The notes under the pieces: generated by a model
Told to the model about the DNA's origin: nothing
What the model saw: the letters and a program-made list of their open reading frames with translations, nothing else
Database searches by the model: none
Made by a program: the position numbers and the translations under genes
Assembly: GCA_021802505.1 (NCBI GenBank)
Contig: JAJZXE010000007.1
Location: forward strand, 1-38,857
Direction: 5' to 3'
DNA length: 38,857 bases
Source: Nanobdellota archaeon
Lineage (GTDB): Archaea > Nanobdellota > Nanobdellia > Parvarchaeales > Parvarchaeaceae
Shown here: in pieces, positions 4,949 through 37,016 of the stretch
Layout of the letters: each line of letters opens with the position of its first letter
Position numbering within the stretch: the stretch's first letter is position 1

Positions 4949-5344
4949 TCACCTGTAACTTGTCTGTTTAAGCGCTCTCGCGGCGCTTCTGTAGGGCTTC
5001 TGCGCCTCAGTCTGCCGCTTGTCGTCTACAAGCATAGTCCTGTCATACTCTAAGAATTTTTTTCTCAGGCTCTTTTCTTTTTTTACAAGGCATTTTGCCA
5101 CCGCAGACCTTATTGTCTGCGCCCTGGCGTTGTATCCCCCGCCGTGAATCATTATATCTATGTCGTATTTCTTATAAAGATCATCGGAAAGTTCAATAGG
5201 CTCGGAAGCTATTTCTTTGAACAGTTTATCATTAAATGAATAGAGCGATTTTCCGTTCACAAATACGTTGCCGCTGCCTTCTTTTATCACCGCGTTTGCA
5301 ACCGCGGTTTTTCTCTTTGCGACAACCATCGTATTCTTTTTCAT
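4949..5344 (-). CDS. rps9: Small ribosomal subunit protein uS9
   Basis: 131 residues covering the whole uS9 protein. It starts with the VVAKRKTAVANAVI strand, has the GGGYNARAQTIRSAVAKCL core, and ends with the invariant basic tail finishing in SYR that reaches the ribosomal P site. The ATG overlaps the end of the uL13 gene by 4 nt, reproducing the L13-S9 pair conserved across domains. In many Archaea this pair is followed by RNA polymerase subunit N, which is not seen here; the next gene downstream is a nucleotide-metabolism gene. Confidence 0.95.
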   Translation of the reverse strand: MKKNTMVVAKRKTAVANAVIKEGSGNVFVNGKSLYSFNDKLFKEIASEPIELSDDLYKKYDIDIMIHGGGYNARAQTIRSAVAKCLVKKEKSLRKKFLEYDRTMLVDDKRQTEAQKPYRSAARALKQTSYR

Positions 5345-23175: not shown

Positions 23176-23455
23176 GCGGTATTGTATACAACAGACCATC
23201 AAAGGAGGAAGTCCGTTCACCTTTAAAACTGAAGTGCAGTAATGCATCGCTGTAAAAGGCGGGCAACTGAGCAGAAACGATACCCGTTTCCAGCGCCGAA
23301 AGATGATGCGCAGGCTGATTGCTGGGAAAGGGATGAAACGGCAGTCCTTCAGGGTGCAAACCGGTATTCCGGCGCTTAGTCGAATGTTGTTGCAACTCAC
23401 AAAGAAGCCTTGAAATAGGTGGAGAGTTGACAAAAAACGGGCTATTCAATACCGC
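23176..23455 (+). ncRNA. rnpB: RNase P RNA
   Basis: No ORF explains this stretch. It has the conserved blocks of RNase P RNA in order: GGAGGAAGTCC (23204-23214; family GAGGAAAGTCC), GCAACTGAGCAGAAAC (CR II/III), GGTGCAAACC (CR IV), AGTCGAATGTTGTTGC (family AGATGAATGACTGCC) and ACAAAAAACGGGCTA (family ACAGAACCCGGCTTA). The ends pair perfectly as helix P1: GCGGTATTG (23176-23184) with CAATACCGC (23447-23455), which fixes the gene borders and a length of about 280 nt. A TATA-like TTATTAAAAG near 23148-23157 is at the right distance. The RNA is the catalytic subunit that trims tRNA 5' leaders; the protein subunit Rnp4 is encoded at 8.5 kb. A second copy of its last 85 bp lies at 24250-24334. Confidence 0.88.
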
Positions 23456-23470
23456 AATCCAATTAAATTC

Positions 23471-23506
23471 AAAAAGTTTACAATTAAAACAACTGGCAAA
23501 CTTTTT
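23471..23506. promoter_or_regulatory. Inverted repeat and TATA region before mntA
   Basis: AAAAAGTTT (23471-23479) and AAACTTTTT (23498-23506) are perfect 9-bp inverted arms 18 nt apart. The second arm runs into a TATA-like CTTTTTATCT centred 28 bp before the ATG at 23532. It may be an autoregulatory operator, or the T-run may end the rnpB transcript. Confidence 0.4.
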
Positions 23507-23531
23507 ATCTGTTCAATATCATGTAAATAAT

Positions 23532-23843
23532 ATGGAAGAGACTGAATCTCAATTACCGCCAAGAATAAATGAAATAGCCGCAAAGATAACACCAATACTC
23601 AAAAAATACGGGGTTGTGAGCGCAGCAATATTTGGATCGTTTGCGAGAGGAGAGGAAAAAGAAAATAGTGACTTGGATATACTTGTTGCATTCAAGGACG
23701 GAAAAACCCCAGGAATAAACTATGTGCATATGTGGCTGGAGTTGAAAGAGGCTACGGGAAGAGAAGTAGACCTGGTTTCTTATAATTTTATACACCCCTT
23801 ATTGAAAAAGTACATTCTATCCGAACAGATAAAGATATTATGA
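23532..23843 (+). CDS. mntA: MntA-type minimal nucleotidyltransferase antitoxin
   Basis: 103 residues. The nucleotidyltransferase signature GSX10DXD is exact: Gly35-Ser36, ten residues, then Asp47-Leu-Asp49; a third acidic residue is in REVDLVSY. In the characterised MntA-HepT pair, this enzyme adds AMP units to a tyrosine of the HEPN toxin and so silences it. The start at 23532 was preferred over an upstream ATG at 23427, which lies inside the RNase P RNA gene. It overlaps hepT by 4 nt. The whole pair is inserted between two copies of the RNase P RNA 3' end. Confidence 0.85.
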   Translation: MEETESQLPPRINEIAAKITPILKKYGVVSAAIFGSFARGEEKENSDLDILVAFKDGKTPGINYVHMWLELKEATGREVDLVSYNFIHPLLKKYILSEQIKIL

Positions 23844-24181
23844 GAGAACAAGAAGTTTATATATCAGAGATATATAATGCCTTAAAAAGGGCATCGGATC
23901 AGCTTAAAAATGTTTCATTGGACGCATTTATGGATTCTAGAGATAAACAGGATATAGTCATACGCAATTTGGAGATAGCTGGAGAAGCCGTAAACCAGCT
24001 TCTGAATCATTTTCCCGACATGAAAGCAAACTCAAAAATAAATTGGTCGGATCTTATAGCTCTTAGAAACATCATAGCGCATCAATATTTTAGAATTGAT
24101 TATGAGGTAATATACAAGATAGTAGTAGAAACTCTGCCTTCATTAATACCAGAGATCAAAAAACTGCTTCCGAAGACTTAA
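23840..24181 (+). CDS. hepT: HepT-type HEPN ribonuclease toxin (DUF86)
   Basis: 113 residues, all helical. It carries the canonical HEPN toxin motif RX4HXY as RNIIAHQY (Arg76, His81, Tyr83): Arg and His are the RNase active site, and Tyr is the residue that MntA AMPylates in studied systems. The ATG overlaps mntA by 4 nt, as usual for the pair. It is therefore expected to be an active, regulated toxin; the RNA target is unknown. The following 68 bp hold nothing recognisable before the duplicated RNase P RNA 3' end. Confidence 0.87.
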   Translation: MREQEVYISEIYNALKRASDQLKNVSLDAFMDSRDKQDIVIRNLEIAGEAVNQLLNHFPDMKANSKINWSDLIALRNIIAHQYFRIDYEVIYKIVVETLPSLIPEIKKLLPKT

Positions 24182-24249: not shown

Positions 24250-24334
24250 GCTTGGTCGAATGTTGTTGCGCTTTACTTAGAGACTTTGAAATAAGCGGAG
24301 AGTTGACAAAAAACGGGCTATTCAATACCGCAAT
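24250..24334 (+). repeat. Second copy of the RNase P RNA 3' end
   Basis: These 85 bp align without gaps to 23374-23458 of the RNase P RNA gene. The first 20 bp differ at one site (TTAGTC/TTGGTC), the middle of about 16 bp has diverged, and the last 38 bp, from GGAGAGTTGAC to the end of P1, are identical. There is no 5' part of the gene before it, so it cannot make RNase P RNA. In the diverged middle it can still form its own hairpin (CGCTT with AAGCG). Together with the intact copy it brackets the mntA-hepT pair as a direct repeat. Confidence 0.9.
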
Positions 24335-24364
24335 TTATTTAAGCAGAGAGGTAATAGAATAAAA

Positions 24365-28421: not shown

Positions 28422-29399
28422 ATGCTTTCCGTATACAAGCCGGAAATGAGGATGTTCATGGAAAATTATTCCAACAGTATATCCTCCAAGGCGCTGTCAT
28501 TGGTTAAACGCGGTAAATCAAGGCTTATATTCAACGGTCCTGCAGGAACCGGTAAAAATTTCCTGGCGGAGGCAATAGCTAATGAGATGGGGGCGAGTTT
28601 CGAGATAATAAACCTGTATGAACTGACGGATGAAACACAGAGTGTTTCTTCGCTCATATTGGAAAGCATAAAGAAATCCGCCGTTTCAAAGTCGCTTTTT
28701 CAGTCAAACAGAAAAGTCATCTATATCGAGGACATGGAGAAGCTGCTGTCCGTAGATCCGTCCATAGCGCAGAAGATAAATTCCGTTGCAACTGATACCA
28801 TACTCATCTTTGAATCGGAGACAGGGGATATATTCCGCGGCAAATACAAAAAGTATCTTGCGGGATACGAGATAATAAGATTTTACAAGCTTAATAACAG
28901 AGCATTGAAGACTGTTGCCATGAAACTTGTGATATACAACAAGCTTCACCTGGATGATAAACTTGTGGACCGGATAGTGGGCGGCGCAAAAGGCAATATC
29001 TCCAGCATTATAACCGATTTAAATACGCTGGTCATAACTAATTCCACTGACATCAGTGTTTTCAGGAATTCCGACGATTCCATATTTGAGAAGATAAACG
29101 CCGTTTTCTCCGGCAGGGTCGAAAAGATTGACATATACTTTGCATCGGATATGGAAGCGAAGAACTTTGCAATCTGGTTGGCGGATAAGGCCCCGCAGGT
29201 TTTGAGAGGGCAGGATCTCTATCATTTTTTCGAATCCCTGTCCGCAGCAGACATAGTGCTTAACAAGATAAAGAAGCAGAACTGGAACCTGCTTAAATAC
29301 GTAAGAAACATAATGGCGTACAGCTGCTATGCTTTTAGGGTCACAATGCCAAAAGTGGATTTTTATGCCCCCAGATGGGACTTATATTATTCTAATTGA
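28422..29399 (+). CDS. rfcL: Replication factor C large subunit, C-terminus altered by a frameshift at a duplication border
   Basis: 325 residues, short for RfcL, which usually exceeds 400. Walker A is GPAGTGKNFLAEAIAN and Walker B IYIEDME; the lid and collar follow. Position directly after rfcS supports the assignment. The last part is anomalous: from 29293 on, the sequence is duplicated at 30691-30796, and this copy has five C (29368-29372) where the other has four. The extra C shifts the frame and ends the protein as APRWDLYYSN; without it the frame would read APDGTYIILIEDKV and stop at about 29411. The downstream copy reads APDGTYIIPIDHK. Either the C-terminus was lost in the insertion of the adjacent MNT-HEPN cassette, or the extra C is a sequencing error. 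Confidence 0.8.
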   Translation: MLSVYKPEMRMFMENYSNSISSKALSLVKRGKSRLIFNGPAGTGKNFLAEAIANEMGASFEIINLYELTDETQSVSSLILESIKKSAVSKSLFQSNRKVIYIEDMEKLLSVDPSIAQKINSVATDTILIFESETGDIFRGKYKKYLAGYEIIRFYKLNNRALKTVAMKLVIYNKLHLDDKLVDRIVGGAKGNISSIITDLNTLVITNSTDISVFRNSDDSIFEKINAVFSGRVEKIDIYFASDMEAKNFAIWLADKAPQVLRGQDLYHFFESLSAADIVLNKIKKQNWNLLKYVRNIMAYSCYAFRVTMPKVDFYAPRWDLYYSN

Positions 29400-29477
29400 G
29401 GATAAGGTGTGAAAAACGCGTTCTCGAGTTTGTTTTTATAAACGTGTGAGCTGAATCTCTGACCGATACTGTCTTTA

Positions 29478-29525
29478 TGGTAATGAATTACCAAGAATTA
29501 TAGTATTGTTGGTAATAGCTACCAA
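29478..29525. promoter_or_regulatory. Two TGGTA/TACCA palindromes upstream of the second MNT gene
   Basis: TGGTAATGAATTACCA (29478-29493) is a perfect 16-bp palindrome apart from its two-base centre. TTGGTAATAGCTACCAA (29509-29525) repeats the same half-site with a 5-nt spacer. They start 31 bp apart, about three helical turns. The same TTACCA/TGGTAA half-sites form the operator at the start of the third MNT gene (31008-31027). Confidence 0.5.
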
Positions 29526-29559
29526 AAAGTATTAATCCCACAGTCACACTGAATAAAAG

Positions 29560-29610
29560 TATTTAAGTGAATAGTACATAAATGTTACATATGTAACATA
29601 AATGTTACAT
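29560..29610 (+). promoter_or_regulatory. Promoter with 18-bp palindrome and 20-bp-spaced direct repeats before the second MNT gene
   Basis: A TATA-like TATTTAAG at 29560-29567 puts transcription start near 29589. Over it lies the perfect palindrome ATGTTACATATGTAACAT (29582-29599). The 15-mer ACATAAATGTTACAT occurs at 29576-29590 and again at 29596-29610, exactly 20 bp apart, so a repressor would meet the same face of the helix. This is a strong candidate for toxin-antitoxin autoregulation. Confidence 0.6.
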
Positions 29611-29616
29611 AATGAT

Positions 29617-30180
29617 ATGACACTTGAATTAGAATTTATGTTTTTAGATAGGATAATAAACAAGCCAGTCCACGTAAGGGAGTTGGCAAGAGAACTGAAG
29701 CTAAATCCTATGATTGTGGCGAGAAAACTAAGTCTCTTGATGTCAAAGAATGTAATAGATTTTAATAAGGAAGGCAGGAACAAGACCTTTTTCCTAAAGA
29801 ATTCATTCGAGGCTAAGAACTGGATCATGATGATGGAGTTATACAAACTTAATGAACTTGCAAGAAAATATCCAGACATAAGGCGAATAGCCAGCAGTGT
29901 GCGTGACATCAAAAATATAGCATTCGCATTACTATTCGGCTCCTACGCCAAACAGAGTGCCGATGAACGCAGCGATATAGATTTATTTATCGAACCGTTT
30001 ACCAAAGACGCAAAAAGTTTAAAGCAGTTAAAATCAGAGCTAGAAGCAATATCATCAAAATTGAGCATAAAGATAGGATTTTATGATGAAGACAACCTAT
30101 TGATAAAAGAAATAGATAAAAATCATGTTGTCTTAAAAGGACTTGAGGAATACTATGCAAAAAGAAAACTCTTTGGTTAA
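29617..30180 (+). CDS. MNT nucleotidyltransferase with N-terminal winged helix (second pair)
   Basis: 187 residues from the ATG at 29617; an upstream ATG at 29602 lies inside the operator repeat. Residues of about 5-60 form a winged helix (VHVRELARELKLNPMIVARKLSLL), and the nucleotidyltransferase core has GSX10DXD (GSYAKQSADERSDID). The winged helix probably binds the palindromes just upstream, making this both antitoxin and repressor. The stop overlaps the HEPN gene by 26 nt. Its closest relative in the window is the MNT of the fourth pair (33189-33743), which has the same domain order. The pair lies between two copies of the rfcL 3' end. Confidence 0.82.
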   Translation: MTLELEFMFLDRIINKPVHVRELARELKLNPMIVARKLSLLMSKNVIDFNKEGRNKTFFLKNSFEAKNWIMMMELYKLNELARKYPDIRRIASSVRDIKNIAFALLFGSYAKQSADERSDIDLFIEPFTKDAKSLKQLKSELEAISSKLSIKIGFYDEDNLLIKEIDKNHVVLKGLEEYYAKRKLFG

Positions 30181-30631
30181 GGCTTATAAAAGCGGAAGAT
30201 TAAAATTGATTGAACCAAACGTTAACCTGATGAGTTCTTACAGAAGGAAAGCCGACGATTATCTGAAATCCGCGAGACTTCTCATGGATAATGACAAACT
30301 AGAGGAGGCAGTTTCTATATTGTATTATAGCATGTATTATGCGGCGTTGTCGTTGTTATTTAGAATTGGTATAAAAAGCGAGAGTCATTTTGCTTCGATA
30401 ATGATACTTAAAGAGGTATTTGGACTAGAGACGGAGCTTATTCTCCATGCCAAGAAAGAACGTATAGAGAAACAATATTACGTCGACTTTGAAATAAGTA
30501 AGGGGGAGGTTCTCGAACTGCTTAGATCTGCAGAAAGTTTTAACTCAAAATTATTAGAATTTACTGAGATGCTAAATGAAGAAAACATAAAACGTTTTAG
30601 ACATAAGTTCATAGACCTTATTGGATCATGA
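30155..30631 (+). CDS. HEPN-domain protein (second pair), lacking the usual catalytic His
   Basis: 158 residues from the ATG at 30155; this start gives the same 26-nt overlap with the MNT gene as in the fourth pair, and matches that protein's N-terminus. The HEPN helices show DYLKSARLLMDN and the paired-tyrosine helix ILYYSMYYAALSLLF. Where HepT toxins have RX4HXY, this has RIEKQYY, that is RX4Y with no His. It could be a non-nuclease HEPN or act on RNA differently. The stop overlaps an ATG that opens a 12-codon frame (MNLTPEQALLIK), perhaps a broken third gene. The rfcL 3' copy begins 59 bp downstream. Confidence 0.75.
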   Translation: MQKENSLVKAYKSGRLKLIEPNVNLMSSYRRKADDYLKSARLLMDNDKLEEAVSILYYSMYYAALSLLFRIGIKSESHFASIMILKEVFGLETELILHAKKERIEKQYYVDFEISKGEVLELLRSAESFNSKLLEFTEMLNEENIKRFRHKFIDLIGS

Positions 30632-30690
30632 ATCTAACGCCGGAACAGGCTTTGTTAATAAAGTAGAGTAGATTGCCGATACAGCCAATT

Positions 30691-30796
30691 TTAAATACGT
30701 AAGAAACATAATGGCGTACAGCTGCTATGCTTTTAGGGTCACAATGCCAAAAGTGGATTTTTATGCCCCAGATGGGACTTATATTATTCCAATTGA
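30691..30796 (+). repeat. Second copy of the rfcL 3' end
   Basis: 106 bp matching 29293-29399 at the end of rfcL, with only two differences: four C instead of five (30766-30769) and C instead of T at 30790. The boundaries are sharp: the bases before (T at 30690 against C at 29292) and after differ. In this copy the reading frame is intact (YAPDGTYIIPIDHK) but there is no start or catalytic part, so it is a displaced fragment. It continues without gap into a LamG-type 3' fragment. Confidence 0.92.
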
Positions 30797-30934
30797 CCAT
30801 AAGAACCCCATTAATTTATTGGTAGGAATATCAGATCTATTTAAATATAACTCAAAAACCAAGGCAATAAAGGCGATTTTAACGGCAGCAGCAATAATGG
30901 CGTAGCTATGAATGTGAACTGGGTCTTGCCCTAA
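30797..30934 (+). pseudogene. Remnant of the C-terminus of a LamG/DUF2341-type surface protein (left fragment)
   Basis: The frame ending at TAA 30932-30934 reads GSSNNGVAMNVNWVLP and, one frameshift upstream, a stretch with LVGISDLFKYN. It matches the fragment at 32181-32317 (NSNNGVATNVAWV) and resembles the end of the 983-residue surface protein (LVAWLPFDGN...YSGN). The DNA of the two fragments agrees at 39 of 52 positions over 30883-30934, with several differences at third codon positions, so they diverged as coding sequence. No start or N-terminal part is present. Confidence 0.6.
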
Positions 30935-30991: not shown

Positions 30992-31027
30992 CTTATATAC
31001 TATAAAATTACCATATTATTATGGTAA
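30992..31027 (+). promoter_or_regulatory. Promoter and operator over the start of the third MNT gene
   Basis: A TATA-like CTTATATAC (30992-31000) is centred 25 bp before the ATG at 31021, so the mRNA is probably leaderless. The palindrome TTACCATATTATTATGGTAA (31008-31027, 8-bp arms, 4-nt spacer) covers transcription start and the ATG itself; a further TACCAT half-site follows. Binding there would block transcription. Confidence 0.6.
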
Positions 31028-31602
31028 ATATACCATTAAAGATACGTGTTCTCATGTTTTTGATAGAGCAGCGTGATGAAAAAACAAACATAGCCATAAT
31101 ATCAAATCATCTCGGAATAAATTATAAGAACGTTTATAGCGTGGTAAAAAAGCTGGCTGCGGATGGCATTATCTCGCTGGAGAAATTTGGGAGAACCAAC
31201 ATCTGCACTTTGGTTAACAGGAACAACCCCCTTATTTTTTGGGCGGAATATGTGCGCAGAGAGAGACTGTTGAAAGATAGGGGGTTTAAAGTCATATATG
31301 ACACACTTAATCTCCTTAGGTTCCCTTTTGAATGTTTGATATTTGGCTCGTATGCTAAAAACAGCGTAACCAGGGCTTCGGATATAGATTTAATGGTAAT
31401 CGCAGATCAAGACAGGGAAAAATTGATACGGCGCGCATTATCTGTCATCCCATTAGACATACACCTCACCTTTCTTACGGAAGAAGAATTTTTAACGATG
31501 GCCGGCTCAAATACTTTTAACGTTGTTTCAGAGGCTTTAAAGAAAAATATAATCTTAATAGGGATAGAAGACCATTACCGAAGGTTGGAATATGCTGGAT
31601 AA
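31021..31602 (+). CDS. MNT nucleotidyltransferase with N-terminal winged helix (third pair)
   Basis: 193 residues. The N-terminal winged helix (IAIISNHLGINYKNVYSVVKKLAADGIISLEKFGR, about 23-58) precedes a nucleotidyltransferase core with Gly109-Ser110, ten residues and Asp121-Ile-Asp123. It is expected to neutralise the HEPN partner and to repress the operon through the palindrome over its own start. The stop overlaps the HEPN gene by 11 nt. It is more distant from the second and fourth MNTs than those are from each other. Flanked left and right by LamG-type 3' fragments. Confidence 0.82.
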   Translation: MVNIPLKIRVLMFLIEQRDEKTNIAIISNHLGINYKNVYSVVKKLAADGIISLEKFGRTNICTLVNRNNPLIFWAEYVRRERLLKDRGFKVIYDTLNLLRFPFECLIFGSYAKNSVTRASDIDLMVIADQDREKLIRRALSVIPLDIHLTFLTEEEFLTMAGSNTFNVVSEALKKNIILIGIEDHYRRLEYAG

Positions 31603-32125
31603 AGAAAGGATAGCGAGCGCAGAAAAGAATGTTAAAGCGTATCTGTATGAAGGTTTGTTGAAAAGAACAAAAGAGGTCGATGACAGGATATTAAACACCT
31701 TCAAGAAGAATGCGGACGAGAGTCTGAACGTGGCAAATTTCATATTTGAAGAGAACCTGTCATCCCTGTGGGTCATCGTATGCTCATATTATTCAATGTA
31801 TTATATCGCCAACGCGGTCTTGTACAGTCTCGGATACAAAGTAGGTCATAGAATTTCACACAAGGTAACCGCAGACACTTTAATTATATTTGTTAGAGGC
31901 AAACTTAAAGCGAGTATACTGGAGGAATTCGATGAAGCCCAAACCGAAGCCCTCGAACTCTCGAATATAAAAGCGGATGAGTTGGTTGAGAGCTTTGATT
32001 TTGAGCGGGTCAAGAGGTCAAAGTTTCAGTATGAGATGACAGAAGAAATAAAACGCTCCAAAGCACAGACTTCTTTAGACCGCGCCAAGGCATTTATATT
32101 TGAAATGAAAAAGCTTTTGCTTTAA
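31592..32125 (+). CDS. HEPN-domain protein (third pair)
   Basis: 177 residues, all helical, with the HEPN paired-tyrosine helix VIVCSYYSMYYIANAVLY (about 61-78). Again no RX4HXY is present; the aligned site reads RSKFQYE (Arg142, Tyr147), RX4Y. An HRISH sequence at about 87-91 might supply His but is at a different place. It overlaps the MNT gene by 11 nt, so it is its translational partner. After its stop come 55 bp without recognisable content and then a LamG-type pseudogene fragment. Confidence 0.75.
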   Translation: MLDKERIASAEKNVKAYLYEGLLKRTKEVDDRILNTFKKNADESLNVANFIFEENLSSLWVIVCSYYSMYYIANAVLYSLGYKVGHRISHKVTADTLIIFVRGKLKASILEEFDEAQTEALELSNIKADELVESFDFERVKRSKFQYEMTEEIKRSKAQTSLDRAKAFIFEMKKLLL

Positions 32126-32180: not shown

Positions 32181-32317
32181 CCTATTTTTTCGGAAGGTTT
32201 TAACGGTGCACTAATAGTCGATGCAGATTTAGTAGCATAGTGGCCATGGACGGCAATACAAACGATTACTTCGGCAACAGCAACAACGGCGTAGCCACAA
32301 ATGTAGCATGGGTCTAG
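32181..32317 (+). pseudogene. Remnant of the C-terminus of a LamG-type surface protein (right fragment)
   Basis: The frame from 32181 reads PIFSEGFNGALIVDADLVA, hits TAG at 32238 where relatives have Tyr, and continues after a frameshift as MDGNTNDYFGNSNNGVATNV to TAG at 32315-32317. Put together this is the LVAYWPMDGN...GNSNNG motif that ends LamG-type proteins. A nonsense codon plus a frameshift and lack of any N-terminal part show decay. It pairs with the left fragment at 30797-30934 around the third MNT-HEPN cassette. Confidence 0.65.
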
Positions 32318-32397
32318 TCTTAAGAAGAGTAGCAGCTGTACTTTTGGCTATTATTCAGATTTCTTATAAAAATTATTGGTATAGCATATGTTATTGA

Positions 32398-32552: not shown

Positions 32553-32712
32553 TTATACGGCTGCACTATGCCAAGTCGACATCTCTTCCTCAAATAGTAT
32601 AATTTTATCGTCATCTGCAGCATCTTCGAGGCCTTCGTCTAAAAAGAGGCGCCAAAGCAGGCCAGCCTGGTGAGCTTCTAATACAAATGAGGTTATGCGA
32701 CTAGCGATTTTC
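32553..32712 (-). pseudogene. Unidentified open 3' fragment after the fourth HEPN gene
   Basis: On the minus strand, in a frame other than that of the HEPN gene, about 53 codons stay open to TAA at 32553-32555 and read as a plausible protein end (FVLEAHQAGLLWRLF, then an acidic stretch DAADDDKIILFEEEM). No start codon, ribosome binding site or promoter belongs to it. It may be another orphaned gene 3' end; I do not recognise the family. Confidence 0.25.
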
Positions 32713-33214
32713 AAGAAATACGTTGTCTGAGGATCTTTTTTAATTTTTCTCTAAGCATCGCTATTTCATTTAGAGAAACCTTTTCGACTATAATCCTGAT
32801 TTGTATCCTAAATTCTTCCGCCTTTTTGATCATGGTTTCTGTATCGTCTTTGATAGTTCCAAACTCATTTTGTGTAATGATATAATACTGCTTGTCGATT
32901 CTCTGCTTCTTTGCGAATGATATCGCATCAAATAAATCCTTCCTTTCAAACAATTTTTCCAGCAGCAAGATTGAGCCGGAATGGTTCTCGCATTTCACAC
33001 CGATTTTAAAGAGTAGGGCAGTGAGAGAATCGTACATGGCATAGTAGGACATAGCGATCGAGTTTTCGTGTAAATCATGTCTAAGGAGCAATTTAGCGGC
33101 TTTCAAGCAGTTTTCCGATTTTTCCAGATATGACCTGCAGATCTCATCAGAAGGCTCGACGAGCCGCAGCTCCCGTTTCGCGCCAAGTTTAATCAAAAAA
33201 TTTGATTCTCTCAT
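32711..33214 (-). CDS. HEPN-domain protein (fourth pair)
   Basis: 167 residues, a clear paralogue of the second-pair HEPN (LRLVEPSDEICRSYLEKSENCLKAAKLLL, and the helix IAMSYYAMYDSLTALLFKIGVK). The motif site reads RIDKQYY (Arg105, Tyr110), once more RX4Y with no His. It overlaps the MNT gene by 26 nt. It lies on the opposite strand from the other three pairs. Function as toxin is inferred from pairing only. Confidence 0.75.
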   Translation of the reverse strand: MRESNFLIKLGAKRELRLVEPSDEICRSYLEKSENCLKAAKLLLRHDLHENSIAMSYYAMYDSLTALLFKIGVKCENHSGSILLLEKLFERKDLFDAISFAKKQRIDKQYYIITQNEFGTIKDDTETMIKKAEEFRIQIRIIVEKVSLNEIAMLREKLKKILRQRIS

Positions 33215-33743
33215 AAAACTCTTCTACTCCTCTTATTATAACATGATTCTTTATTATTTCTCTCGCAAGCATCGAGGACGTGTCAAATTTCCCGATCTTT
33301 GCGCTTATTTTTGTGTGAAGAGAGTCTATTGATTCCTTCACCTTAGAATCGTTTGTTTCTGCATAGATATCGATATCACTTTCTTTGCCTGCCTCAAATT
33401 TTGAATAGCTTCCAAAAAGCAGGACCAGTTTCTCGTCCGTTTTATTGATCACGTCGTTTAAAATCACACCCAATTCAGGGTATTTTTTTAATAATTTTAA
33501 AAGTTTGTACATCTCCGCGCTATAGATATAGGCTCTTGATTCCATCGTTTTTTTAAGGAAGAAGTCCTTGTTCTTTCCGTTCTTTTTGTAATCCACAGCG
33601 TTCTTCTTTATTAGTCCGTTTAACCTTCTCATAATTGTCGCATGCGGTATCAGTAGCTTGCGGCTGATGCTCCTTAAGTGGTCTTCTCCTCTAAGCAGAA
33701 GCAGTATAATTTCTAGTTCTACATTGTCTCCATTATAAGCCAT
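33189..33743 (-). CDS. MNT nucleotidyltransferase with N-terminal winged helix (fourth pair)
   Basis: 184 residues from MAYNGDNVELEIIL. The start at 33743 was chosen over 33752 because the TATA-like stretch (33763-33771) is 24 bp from it and only 15 bp from the other. Winged helix (HLRSISRKLLIPHATIMRRLNGLIKK), then GSX10DXD as GSYSKFEAGKESDID, then a C-terminal segment shared with the second MNT (KNHVIIRGVEEFYERIKFF). The CCATATGG palindrome at the start (33740-33747) may be its operator. It is the regulator and antitoxin candidate of the fourth pair. Confidence 0.82.
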   Translation of the reverse strand: MAYNGDNVELEIILLLLRGEDHLRSISRKLLIPHATIMRRLNGLIKKNAVDYKKNGKNKDFFLKKTMESRAYIYSAEMYKLLKLLKKYPELGVILNDVINKTDEKLVLLFGSYSKFEAGKESDIDIYAETNDSKVKESIDSLHTKISAKIGKFDTSSMLAREIIKNHVIIRGVEEFYERIKFFD

Positions 33744-33837
33744 ATGGTTCATATACGGTACATTAATATAAGGCTTTCCCTCAGCCTATTTAAGCCGTCT
33801 CAATACGTACAATACAGTCCACATAAAATAGACGAGG

Positions 33838-34086: not shown

Positions 34087-34106
34087 ACTCAATGCGTTAC
34101 AAAAAT

Positions 34107-35384
34107 ATGACTTCAGTAAGCGAAATAGCACAAATAGCAAGGAGCCAGGAAAGCGATATGAAAGGGAGATTAGCTAGGGGCTTCATACCGCGCGAATTAA
34201 GGTTAGACAAAAAAGACATTAAATTTGATGTAGCTAGTATAATTACTGGGCCGAGAAGAAGTGGTAAGTCCACGTTCGCTTTCGCTTTTTTACAAGACCA
34301 AGATTTTGGGTATATAAATTTTGATGATGAAAGGCTATCTGAAATAACCCTTAAGGATCTAGACAAAGTTTTGGAGGCGATATATTATCTTAAGGGGAAT
34401 GTTACCCTTTTGCTTTTCGACGAGATACAGAATATAAAAGGATGGGAACTATTCATATCCAGGTTAGTAATATCCAAAAAAGTGGTTTTGACAGGCAGTA
34501 ATTCATCGCTTCTAAGCAAGGAACTAGCGACTCATCTGACAGGCAGACACAAGGAGTATGAGCTACTGCCGTTTAGTTTTAGGGAATTTTTGGAGTACAA
34601 AAACGTTCATCAAAATTCAAAGGGAGTATACACGACCGAAGAAAAGGCACAGATGATAAAATTGTTGGGAGCTTATCTTGAAAACGGTGGTTTCCCCATA
34701 GTTTTAGACGGTGATCCCGACAGAATATTGGTGCTCTATAGGGACATAGTCGAACGAGATATAATACAAAGATACAAGATACGACAAAGTGCAAAATTTA
34801 AGCAGTTCGTTAAGTACTTGATTAGCAATTCTTCTTCGGAGATAAGCTACAACAAGTTGAAGAATATTTTTAGCATAGGCAGTTTTCACACCGTCCAAAA
34901 TTGGATAAACTTTATAGAGAATAGTTATCTCACCATAATACTGGATAGATTCTCGTTTAAGCTAAAAGAGGCTATACTCGCTCCCAAAAAAATTTATACC
35001 GTAGACACGGGGTTCATAACACAGGTTACCGGTTCACCTCAGATAAGCAGACTTATTGAAAACATAGTTTTGGTTGAACTGATCAGAAGGAAAAGCTATT
35101 TCAACAATTCGATGGAGATAAATTACTGGAAAAATGAACAGCAGGCAGAAGTGGATTTTGTTATTAGAAACGGCAAGTCCGTAACAAGTCTAATCCAGGT
35201 CTCATATATAAATGATAAAAAGGAAATAAAAGAACGGGAGACAAAAAACCTGCTCCTCGCCTCCAAAGAACTTCACTGCAATGACCTTTTGATAATAACC
35301 TGGGACTACGAAGCCGAGGAGAAGATCAAGGGCAAGAAGATAAAGTTCACCCCTTTGTGGAAATGGCTTCTTAACACAAAGTAA
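34107..35384 (+). CDS. AAA_14/DUF4143 ATPase with PD-(D/E)XK-like C-terminal domain
   Basis: 425 residues from the ATG at 34107. The in-frame ATG at 34092 is only about 10 bp from the TATA box, so the second start fits leaderless transcription better. Walker A is GPRRSGKSTFAFAF, Walker B LLLFDEIQN and sensor 1 VVLTGSNSSLL; RHKEYELLPFSFREFL is the typical next motif. The C-terminal DUF4143 part has EVDFVIRNG...LIQVSY, the EXD...QXS arrangement of PD-(D/E)XK nucleases. Such ATPases are abundant in accessory regions of Archaea and their role is unclear. An older copy of its 3' end lies just upstream. Confidence 0.85.
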   Translation: MTSVSEIAQIARSQESDMKGRLARGFIPRELRLDKKDIKFDVASIITGPRRSGKSTFAFAFLQDQDFGYINFDDERLSEITLKDLDKVLEAIYYLKGNVTLLLFDEIQNIKGWELFISRLVISKKVVLTGSNSSLLSKELATHLTGRHKEYELLPFSFREFLEYKNVHQNSKGVYTTEEKAQMIKLLGAYLENGGFPIVLDGDPDRILVLYRDIVERDIIQRYKIRQSAKFKQFVKYLISNSSSEISYNKLKNIFSIGSFHTVQNWINFIENSYLTIILDRFSFKLKEAILAPKKIYTVDTGFITQVTGSPQISRLIENIVLVELIRRKSYFNNSMEINYWKNEQQAEVDFVIRNGKSVTSLIQVSYINDKKEIKERETKNLLLASKELHCNDLLIITWDYEAEEKIKGKKIKFTPLWKWLLNTK

Positions 35385-35453: not shown

Positions 35454-37016
35454 ATGTTTAATAGCCGTAAAGACAATAACAGAGAGAAATCATCGAGTGG
35501 TAGTTCCCACACATATTCGTACGCGCCCCCCCACTTTTTACATACTAAACTAAACCAAAATAAAAGATCACAGTCCGCTCTCGAATACATGATGACCTAT
35601 GGTTGGGCTATCCTGATCATAGTCATCGTAGCAGTAATCCTTTACAGTATGGGTATATTCAACCCATCTTCAGCAGTGACAACAACAAGCAGCGGTTTCT
35701 CTCCTTTTGCCATCAGTTCGGTAATCTGCAGTCCTGCAGGTTTGACAGTAGCAATAACAGCGGGTGGTCTTCCAAACAATGCAGCTTCAGCTCAAATAAC
35801 AGCGGTTTACTTCTCTTCAACCACGGGAACAACAGCTTCAACCGGTAAATTATACAGTATAACTCCAGTGACATTAGCTTCAGGTTCTTCAACTACTTTC
35901 GTAGTACCGACAGTAGCATGTACCTCAGCAGGAACAGCATTTTCTTTGTCAACAAAGCTGCAGTACAGCTATTCATCCCCGGCAGGAAACGTAGTTACAA
36001 ATGCCACAGGAACGATAGCAGGAACTTCATCTGCATTAAAAATAACAGCATATGTCCCATTAACTATAAGTTCTTCTGCAGCAACACCACAGACTTGGCA
36101 GCAACTGGTTGTTGTAAATATGAGCAATTATAAGAGTTACGCTTCTTCAACATTGGATAACCTAGAATTCACCTATCCAAACGGCAGCATAATACCTTCC
36201 TGGAGAGAGAATGGAACGAGCAACACCCAAGTAGCGGCTTATTTCTTGAAATTAGGCAGTTTTACATCGACAACAGTCCATATGGACTTTTTTCCTATAT
36301 CAGATAACGTTTTGAATACTGTAAACACTGGAGAAGCTCCTCAACTTACATGTAGTAATCCCTTAAACACAGCTTCGTGTAATACCTATGCAGAGTACGA
36401 TAATGGCAATTACGTTTTTAATTATTACCAAAATTTTAAAGGAACTACTTATCCGGCGGGATGGACTACTAATAATTTTGATACTACAAAATATGTTGAG
36501 ATACACAATGGTTTTACAATTGAATTTAGTCCAGTGGGCGTGGAATTTTATTATAACAGAGAAAATTTTTCTTTACCTGCGATACTAGATTGGCAGGGTA
36601 GTTATATCCCAAATCCTCCTCGTTATTGTGGTTGGACGATTCTTGGTTGGTATAATTTCAGTAGTGGTGATTCCGCTGGATGGGCGCAATGGATAAATTC
36701 TCCAACTTCTTGGGTACATTATCAGTATGGAAATATCAGTCAAGCGGCACAAAATTTTTACAATAGTACGGGAATAATAGGAAATCAAGAAGTTTTTTCC
36801 CTTACTAACGCAGGTACAAGTATGGGTTATTTACTTAATTACACTCTTCAGTCCTATGCAAATCCTGAGAATACTCCGTTGCAAACAGTGCTTTTTAGAA
36901 ATGGGGCAGGTTGTGGTCCTACCAGCGGAAGCGAAGTCAATGTAACATGGCTAGATGTAAGAGCATACCCTCCTTCAAGTGGTAGGCCTTCCGTTTCATT
37001 TGGTAGTGTTTCTTAG
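35454..37016 (+). CDS. Class III signal-peptide surface protein with DUF2341 module
   Basis: 520 residues. A hydrophilic N-terminal stretch of about 41 residues (Ser/Asn/His-rich) precedes RSQSALEYMMTYGWAILIIV, the class III (pilin/archaellin-like) signal and membrane helix. A Ser/Thr/Ala-rich beta region follows (about 70-200), then a DUF2341 module (about 205-330) with NGSIIPSWRENG and EYDNGNYVFNYYQNF, and an end with LDVRAYPPSSGRPSVSF. The long pre-signal extension is unusual, but the TATA-like ATTTAAATAAAA (about 35425-35435) sits at the right distance for this ATG. It has no LamG domain, unlike the 983-residue protein. Confidence 0.8.
   Translation: MFNSRKDNNREKSSSGSSHTYSYAPPHFLHTKLNQNKRSQSALEYMMTYGWAILIIVIVAVILYSMGIFNPSSAVTTTSSGFSPFAISSVICSPAGLTVAITAGGLPNNAASAQITAVYFSSTTGTTASTGKLYSITPVTLASGSSTTFVVPTVACTSAGTAFSLSTKLQYSYSSPAGNVVTNATGTIAGTSSALKITAYVPLTISSSAATPQTWQQLVVVNMSNYKSYASSTLDNLEFTYPNGSIIPSWRENGTSNTQVAAYFLKLGSFTSTTVHMDFFPISDNVLNTVNTGEAPQLTCSNPLNTASCNTYAEYDNGNYVFNYYQNFKGTTYPAGWTTNNFDTTKYVEIHNGFTIEFSPVGVEFYYNRENFSLPAILDWQGSYIPNPPRYCGWTILGWYNFSSGDSAGWAQWINSPTSWVHYQYGNISQAAQNFYNSTGIIGNQEVFSLTNAGTSMGYLLNYTLQSYANPENTPLQTVLFRNGAGCGPTSGSEVNVTWLDVRAYPPSSGRPSVSFGSVS

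Follow-up and report, generated by a model that had tools for sequence, protein, structure and literature searches.

Some MNT-HEPN operons are inserted next to host genes together with a duplication of 50-115 bp of the gene end, the same sites are empty in relatives, and many unrelated gene ends serve as targets. The operon behind rfcL and two others from the same region illustrate this: in the window, i.e. the whole stretch of 38,857 nucleotides that was analysed, three out of four MNT-HEPN operons are bracketed by duplicated ends, namely those of rfcL, rnpB and a pilin gene. The reading we consider probable, from sequence comparison, is that these operons are type VII-like passenger cassettes at gene ends which lack a recombinase of their own and would be moved by homologous recombination of the host.

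The rfcL locus

The gene rfcL (replication factor C large subunit, 28422-29399, plus strand) is intact. It carries an AAA domain and encodes 325 amino acids with a C-terminus ending in FYAPRWDLYYSN directly before the stop, and the relatives have the same conserved ending. Its last 107 bp with the stop codon (29293-29399) form copy 1 of a direct repeat; copy 2 (30691-30796, plus strand, 106 bp) is a frameshifted remnant of the same 3′ end. The preliminary description of a cassette bracketed by a duplicated rfcL 3′ end is therefore confirmed, with copy 1 being the true RfcL end, and alignment bears out the reported differences: copy 2 has one C fewer (CCCC instead of CCCCC) and a single T/C substitution. 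The stretch 29293-29371 equals 30691-30769 in 79 of 79 positions, which is the longest exact repeat within the window and puts a chance origin out of the question. Weaker identity extends to 29406 and 30803 (114 bp, 96%).

Between the copies there is one operon, as had been noted before, with three dyads upstream. The MNT (nucleotidyltransferase) antitoxin-like gene (29602-30180, plus strand) combines an N-terminal HTH-like region (HVO_A0114-like, 1e-4) with a Polbeta part (PF18765, 6e-12) and the motif GSYAKQSADERSDID. The adjacent HEPN toxin-like gene (30155-30631, plus strand, start codon uncertain) matches PF05168 (1.4e-8) and weakly the PDB entry 2hsb; on reading the sequence no clear Rx4-6H motif is seen in it. 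The arrangement of MNT and HEPN or HepT genes side by side in one operon follows from the Pfam domains. The putative promoter/operator region (29479-29601, plus strand) contains dyads at 29479, 29509 and 29582, the last being a perfect 18-bp palindrome, ATGTTACATATGTAACAT, for which, as for the other two, a regulatory role is predicted. A search of IMG/VR gave no viral carrier of this MNT.

Comparison of the rfcL loci of relatives revealed cassette-free alleles, in which a pilin gene or the next conserved gene directly follows rfcL, and no tandem rfcL ends without a cassette were found among them. A search for a close donor of the rfcL end gave none. With 98% identity between the two copies and no donor at hand, rfcL alone cannot separate a duplication of the recipient's own end from an imported one.

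A displaced rfcL 3′ end of about 90 bp is located upstream of an AAA ATPase ORF in G009 (contig C52, L044 5785-5880). It is 85% identical to the end of G009's own rfcL, which sits on a different contig, and thus appears to be a gene end that moved along with different cargo.

Further operons in the window

The earlier assumption that the rnpB case parallels rfcL held: an MNT-HepT operon (23534-24181, plus strand) is bracketed by two 93-bp copies of the rnpB 3′ end (23374-23466 and 24250-24342, both plus strand). The MNT begins at about 23534 (PF18765, 1.1e-16) and is followed by HepT at 23840-24181 (PF01934, 1.6e-22); the sequence reads RNIIAH for the HepT Rx4-6H motif and GSFARG..SDLD for the MNT motif GSxxRx..SDxD. 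The rnpB copies are only 84% alike, so this is not a near-identical recent duplication. Near identity had been taken as a sign of a recent event, which is reasonable for rfcL but does not hold for rnpB: there copy 1 has 99% identity to another species, and copy 2 lacks this likeness.

The third cassette consists of an MNT gene found by domain search (31021-31602, plus strand) and a HEPN gene (31592-32125, plus strand) whose Pfam match is sub-threshold (21.1 bits, cut-off 22). Local alignment places a repeat of about 72 bp on its left (30863-30934, GNKGDFNGSSNNGVAMNVNWV) and right (32252-32323), both on the plus strand, with a score of 45; the highest score among 1983 random pairs is 29. Both flanks are fragments of a pilin 3′ end, identified by the pilins which follow rfcL in relatives and have the C-termini GNANDYSGNNNNGVATAVNWVSP.

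The fourth operon (32711-33752, minus strand) is 39% / 34% identical to the second, at rfcL, and alignment of its flanks detected no repeat. After it come genes for an AAA ATPase (34092-35384) and for a pilin of class III type (35454-37016).

Gene-end duplications across the genus

To place these cases we aligned the flanks of 75 HEPN genes and of 570 control positions (cut-off score of at least 45) from 28 genomes of the genus. All are metagenome assemblies and incomplete except for G015, which is 100% complete; the genome of the window (G000) is a 763-kb assembly with 84% completeness. Flanking repeats occur at 11 out of 75 HEPN genes compared to 2 out of 570 control positions (P=1.7e-9), and the enrichment persists if three doubtful cases are removed (P=9e-7). 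The cassette within duplicated gene ends is a pattern and not a single case. About 85% of the MNT-HEPN genes in the 28 genomes have no flanking repeat detectable by this alignment, which could reflect decay of repeats or other routes.

The targets are diverse. A tRNA is associated with a repeat of 56 bp, and in G023 a 50-bp repeat derives from the 3′ end of a gene encoding 261 amino acids. In G015 a 110-bp repeat made of the 23S rRNA 3′ end and 56 bp downstream (L149 3318-3427 / 5089-5197) surrounds a VapC gene and an MNT-HepT operon. The rnpB end is used again in a second species, G019, with a 54-bp repeat and the cargo in opposite orientation. Stop-codon, intergenic and promoter sites are also found. 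The repeats vary in length, and the targets are unrelated and share no common end sequence.

Some candidates were set aside. The orthologous HepT cassettes of G026, G003 and G010 have AT-rich, promoter-like flank repeats and were not counted as firm, and the G004 case, which is part of a tandem array of pilin and ATPase genes, could be explained by paralogy.

That array (G004 contig C3, L132) holds tandem AAA ATPase 3′-end fragments and pilin genes with the MNT-HEPN operon between them, and a similar duplication of an ATPase end surrounds a pilin and an ATPase gene on contig C8 of the window genome (L226 14690-18602). On contig C21 of G015 (L111 2615-5583) a 24-42-bp motif (AAAGAGTTAAAAGTTAAATCTGA) occurs four times and alternates with successive cargo genes, among them acetyltransferases and a HEPN gene, which resembles a cassette array.

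Occupied and empty alleles

The most direct comparison is provided by G023 and G027, which are near-clonal (99.4% identity; 99.2-99.8% over about 80 kb). G027 has one copy of the 50-bp gene end, and G023 has two around its MNT-HEPN operon. Copy 1 of G023 equals G027 in nucleotides 1-23 and shows four differences in nucleotides 24-50, while copy 2 differs from G027 only at nucleotide 9. Within the last 126 bp before the cassette there are 6 mismatches, whereas the background rate of 0.37% predicts 0.5 (P about 1e-5); the gene end adjoining the cassette thus differs in type from the resident one. This mosaic fits the entry of DNA with its own gene end, or an exchange with a donor allele that held a cassette. 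It fits equally well the reverse course, in which a crossover between the repeats removed the operon from G027. As other relatives are more compact at this site, the empty state is probably ancestral.

A second hint towards donor DNA arises from rnpB. Copy 1 of the window is 99.2% identical to the rnpB end of G020, and copy 2 is nearest to that of G009 (91%). Window and G020 are about 98-100% identical in two tracts, at about 23341-23533 and from 24322 to about 24790, as opposed to about 60-90% outside both. The left tract ends at the MNT start codon (about 23533). The cargo itself differs: the window has MNT-HepT, and G020 has a 200-aa ORF and a gene (L040 2695-3552) that we take to be cupredoxin-like from our own reading of its sequence, a label with no database match behind it; the shared leader stops exactly at the start codon of that gene. 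In nine other relatives the site is empty, and the downstream gene begins about 20 bp past the repeat end. UBA446, an independent assembly, has the same left junction. We regard this as direct evidence at the sequence level for gene-end tracts that bring varying cargo from species to species, apparently by homologous exchange. In both cases, G023 and rnpB, the sequence at the gene end is of donor type as judged from these comparisons. The earlier idea that incoming DNA with a gene 3′ end plus cassette undergoes homologous recombination is supported in this respect, the mechanism as such being our interpretation.

Competing explanations

A rather unlikely alternative is that each operon was inserted with a strict target duplication, in which 50-115 bp of the recipient itself were copied by a staggered break with fill-in or by template switching, so that differences between the copies would be later decay. 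The variable duplication length and the unrelated targets with no common end sequence agree with this, there is an exact precedent in restriction-modification (RM) systems, and the rfcL copies are as expected, nearly identical, the non-coding one being damaged. In G023, however, it is the coding copy, and not the spare one, that holds the four differences from the empty site. At rnpB, moreover, the copies point to two sources, with copy 1 99% like G020 and copy 2 nearest to G009. An artefact, by which assembly of strain variants or of an extrachromosomal copy created the repeats, is barely credible. The comparisons were made on assembled metagenome contigs, and a contig of G003 does end inside the rfcL end; yet copy 2 at rfcL is set apart by a frameshift and by its flanks, several independent MAGs show the same architecture, UBA446 reproduces the rnpB left junction in an independent assembly, and the G023/G027 pair is clean.

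As attachment sites, gene 3′ ends, tRNA, rnpB and 23S rRNA would be typical or plausible, and the crossover in G023 falls within an identical core of 14 bp. The cassettes might therefore be stripped-down integrative elements with the repeats as attL and attR, served in trans by a tyrosine recombinase, and such enzymes (PF00589) are present in 7 out of 28 genomes. G027 even has two, so that a trans-acting integrase may apply to the G023/G027 pair. We nevertheless consider this quite improbable in general. PF00589 has no match in the other 21 genomes, among them the window genome, G019, G023 and also G015, with its several cassette cases and full completeness, and a serine recombinase (PF00239) was found in none of the 28. 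The preliminary suggestion of a movement in trans is thus left with no candidate enzyme in the window genome. The cassettes of about 1 kb contain no integrase remnant, the unrelated sites would require different integrases, and intergenic and promoter targets occur as well. Inverted repeats of at least 40 bp are absent from the window.

Proposed mechanism

In the favoured reading, transfer by host recombination, an occupied site consists of the gene with its end copy, the operon with its own putative promoter, and the second end copy. The host gene stays whole, because the long duplication is placed within its own length of the gene end. Entry and movement would be due to RadA-type homologous recombination of the host on gene-end homology, either by a single crossover of DNA with a gene end and cassette, or by replacement of the resident allele with a donor allele that already holds a cassette. 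A crossover between the repeats would excise the cassette again, and addiction to the putative toxin might select against cassette loss. The preference for gene ends could be a matter of survivorship, as insertions that damage an essential gene would be lost.

A wider and more tentative proposal is that such recombinase-free gene-end cassettes exist throughout the genus, as accessory or addiction operons with a conserved gene-end copy that could pass from one species to another through homologous recombination of the host and create hot spots of cargo exchange. At the rnpB end the cargo is MNT-HepT, another MNT-HEPN operon, or the cupredoxin-like gene.

Comparison with known systems

Archaeal integrative elements at tRNA or other gene 3′ ends keep the gene end whole and have direct repeats at both ends. 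The cassettes share both features. They differ in three points: the element, and in most cases the genome too, has no integrase; the unit is one operon of about 1 kb; and the targets vary by unit. With archaeal integron gene cassettes (PMC9668308) they have in common small promoter/ORF units stacked in arrays, e.g. on contig 21 of G015; in contrast to those, G015 has no tyrosine recombinase match and the repeats look like gene ends.

MNT-HEPN operons are known as type VII toxin-antitoxin modules (PMC7641770, PMC11586414). The cassettes resemble them in mobility, in domains and in the order of genes in the operon; Pfam identifies the rnpB cassette as MNT-HepT, and its toxicity, as that of the others, is a prediction. 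Recent insertions or deletions of HEPN-MNT genes were noted in PMC2701414, and the searched passages of that paper contain no duplicated gene ends at their borders.

The closest likeness is to RM systems. The preliminary description knew of no mobile unit that behaves in this way without its own recombinase; RM systems without a linked mobile element had however been reported to insert with long and variable target duplications of about 100 bp (passages of PMC3874152 and PMC3031569; also PMC1643837). In these passages "insertion with long target duplication" is credited to Nobusato et al. 2000 and Furuta et al. 2010. Both are two-gene addiction modules with no recombinase of their own and a long, variable direct target duplication of about 100 bp, recognized by comparing close genomes. 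Here too, repeats of tens to more than 100 bp stand on both sides, empty relatives have a single target copy (G027; rnpB, rfcL), and neither a dedicated recombinase in the window genome (PF00589/PF00239) nor inverted repeats of the length searched for in the window accompany them. By analogy the archaeal cassettes appear to work like the RM case. They differ from it in carrying MNT-HEPN, in residing in small archaea, and in targets that are often the ends of essential or RNA genes. Their repeat copies can further differ in species origin, which argues for homologous exchange.

A little-explained mode of mobility, reported mainly for bacterial RM systems, is thus extended to toxin-antitoxin modules in reduced DPANN archaea, which are tiny, acid-loving and mostly without site-specific recombinases. 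This helps to explain the abundance and patchiness of MNT-HEPN in archaea, and also why cassettes are found beside essential genes, as the gene remains complete thanks to the duplicated end. With occupied and empty alleles 0.6% apart, the mechanism is open to a direct test.
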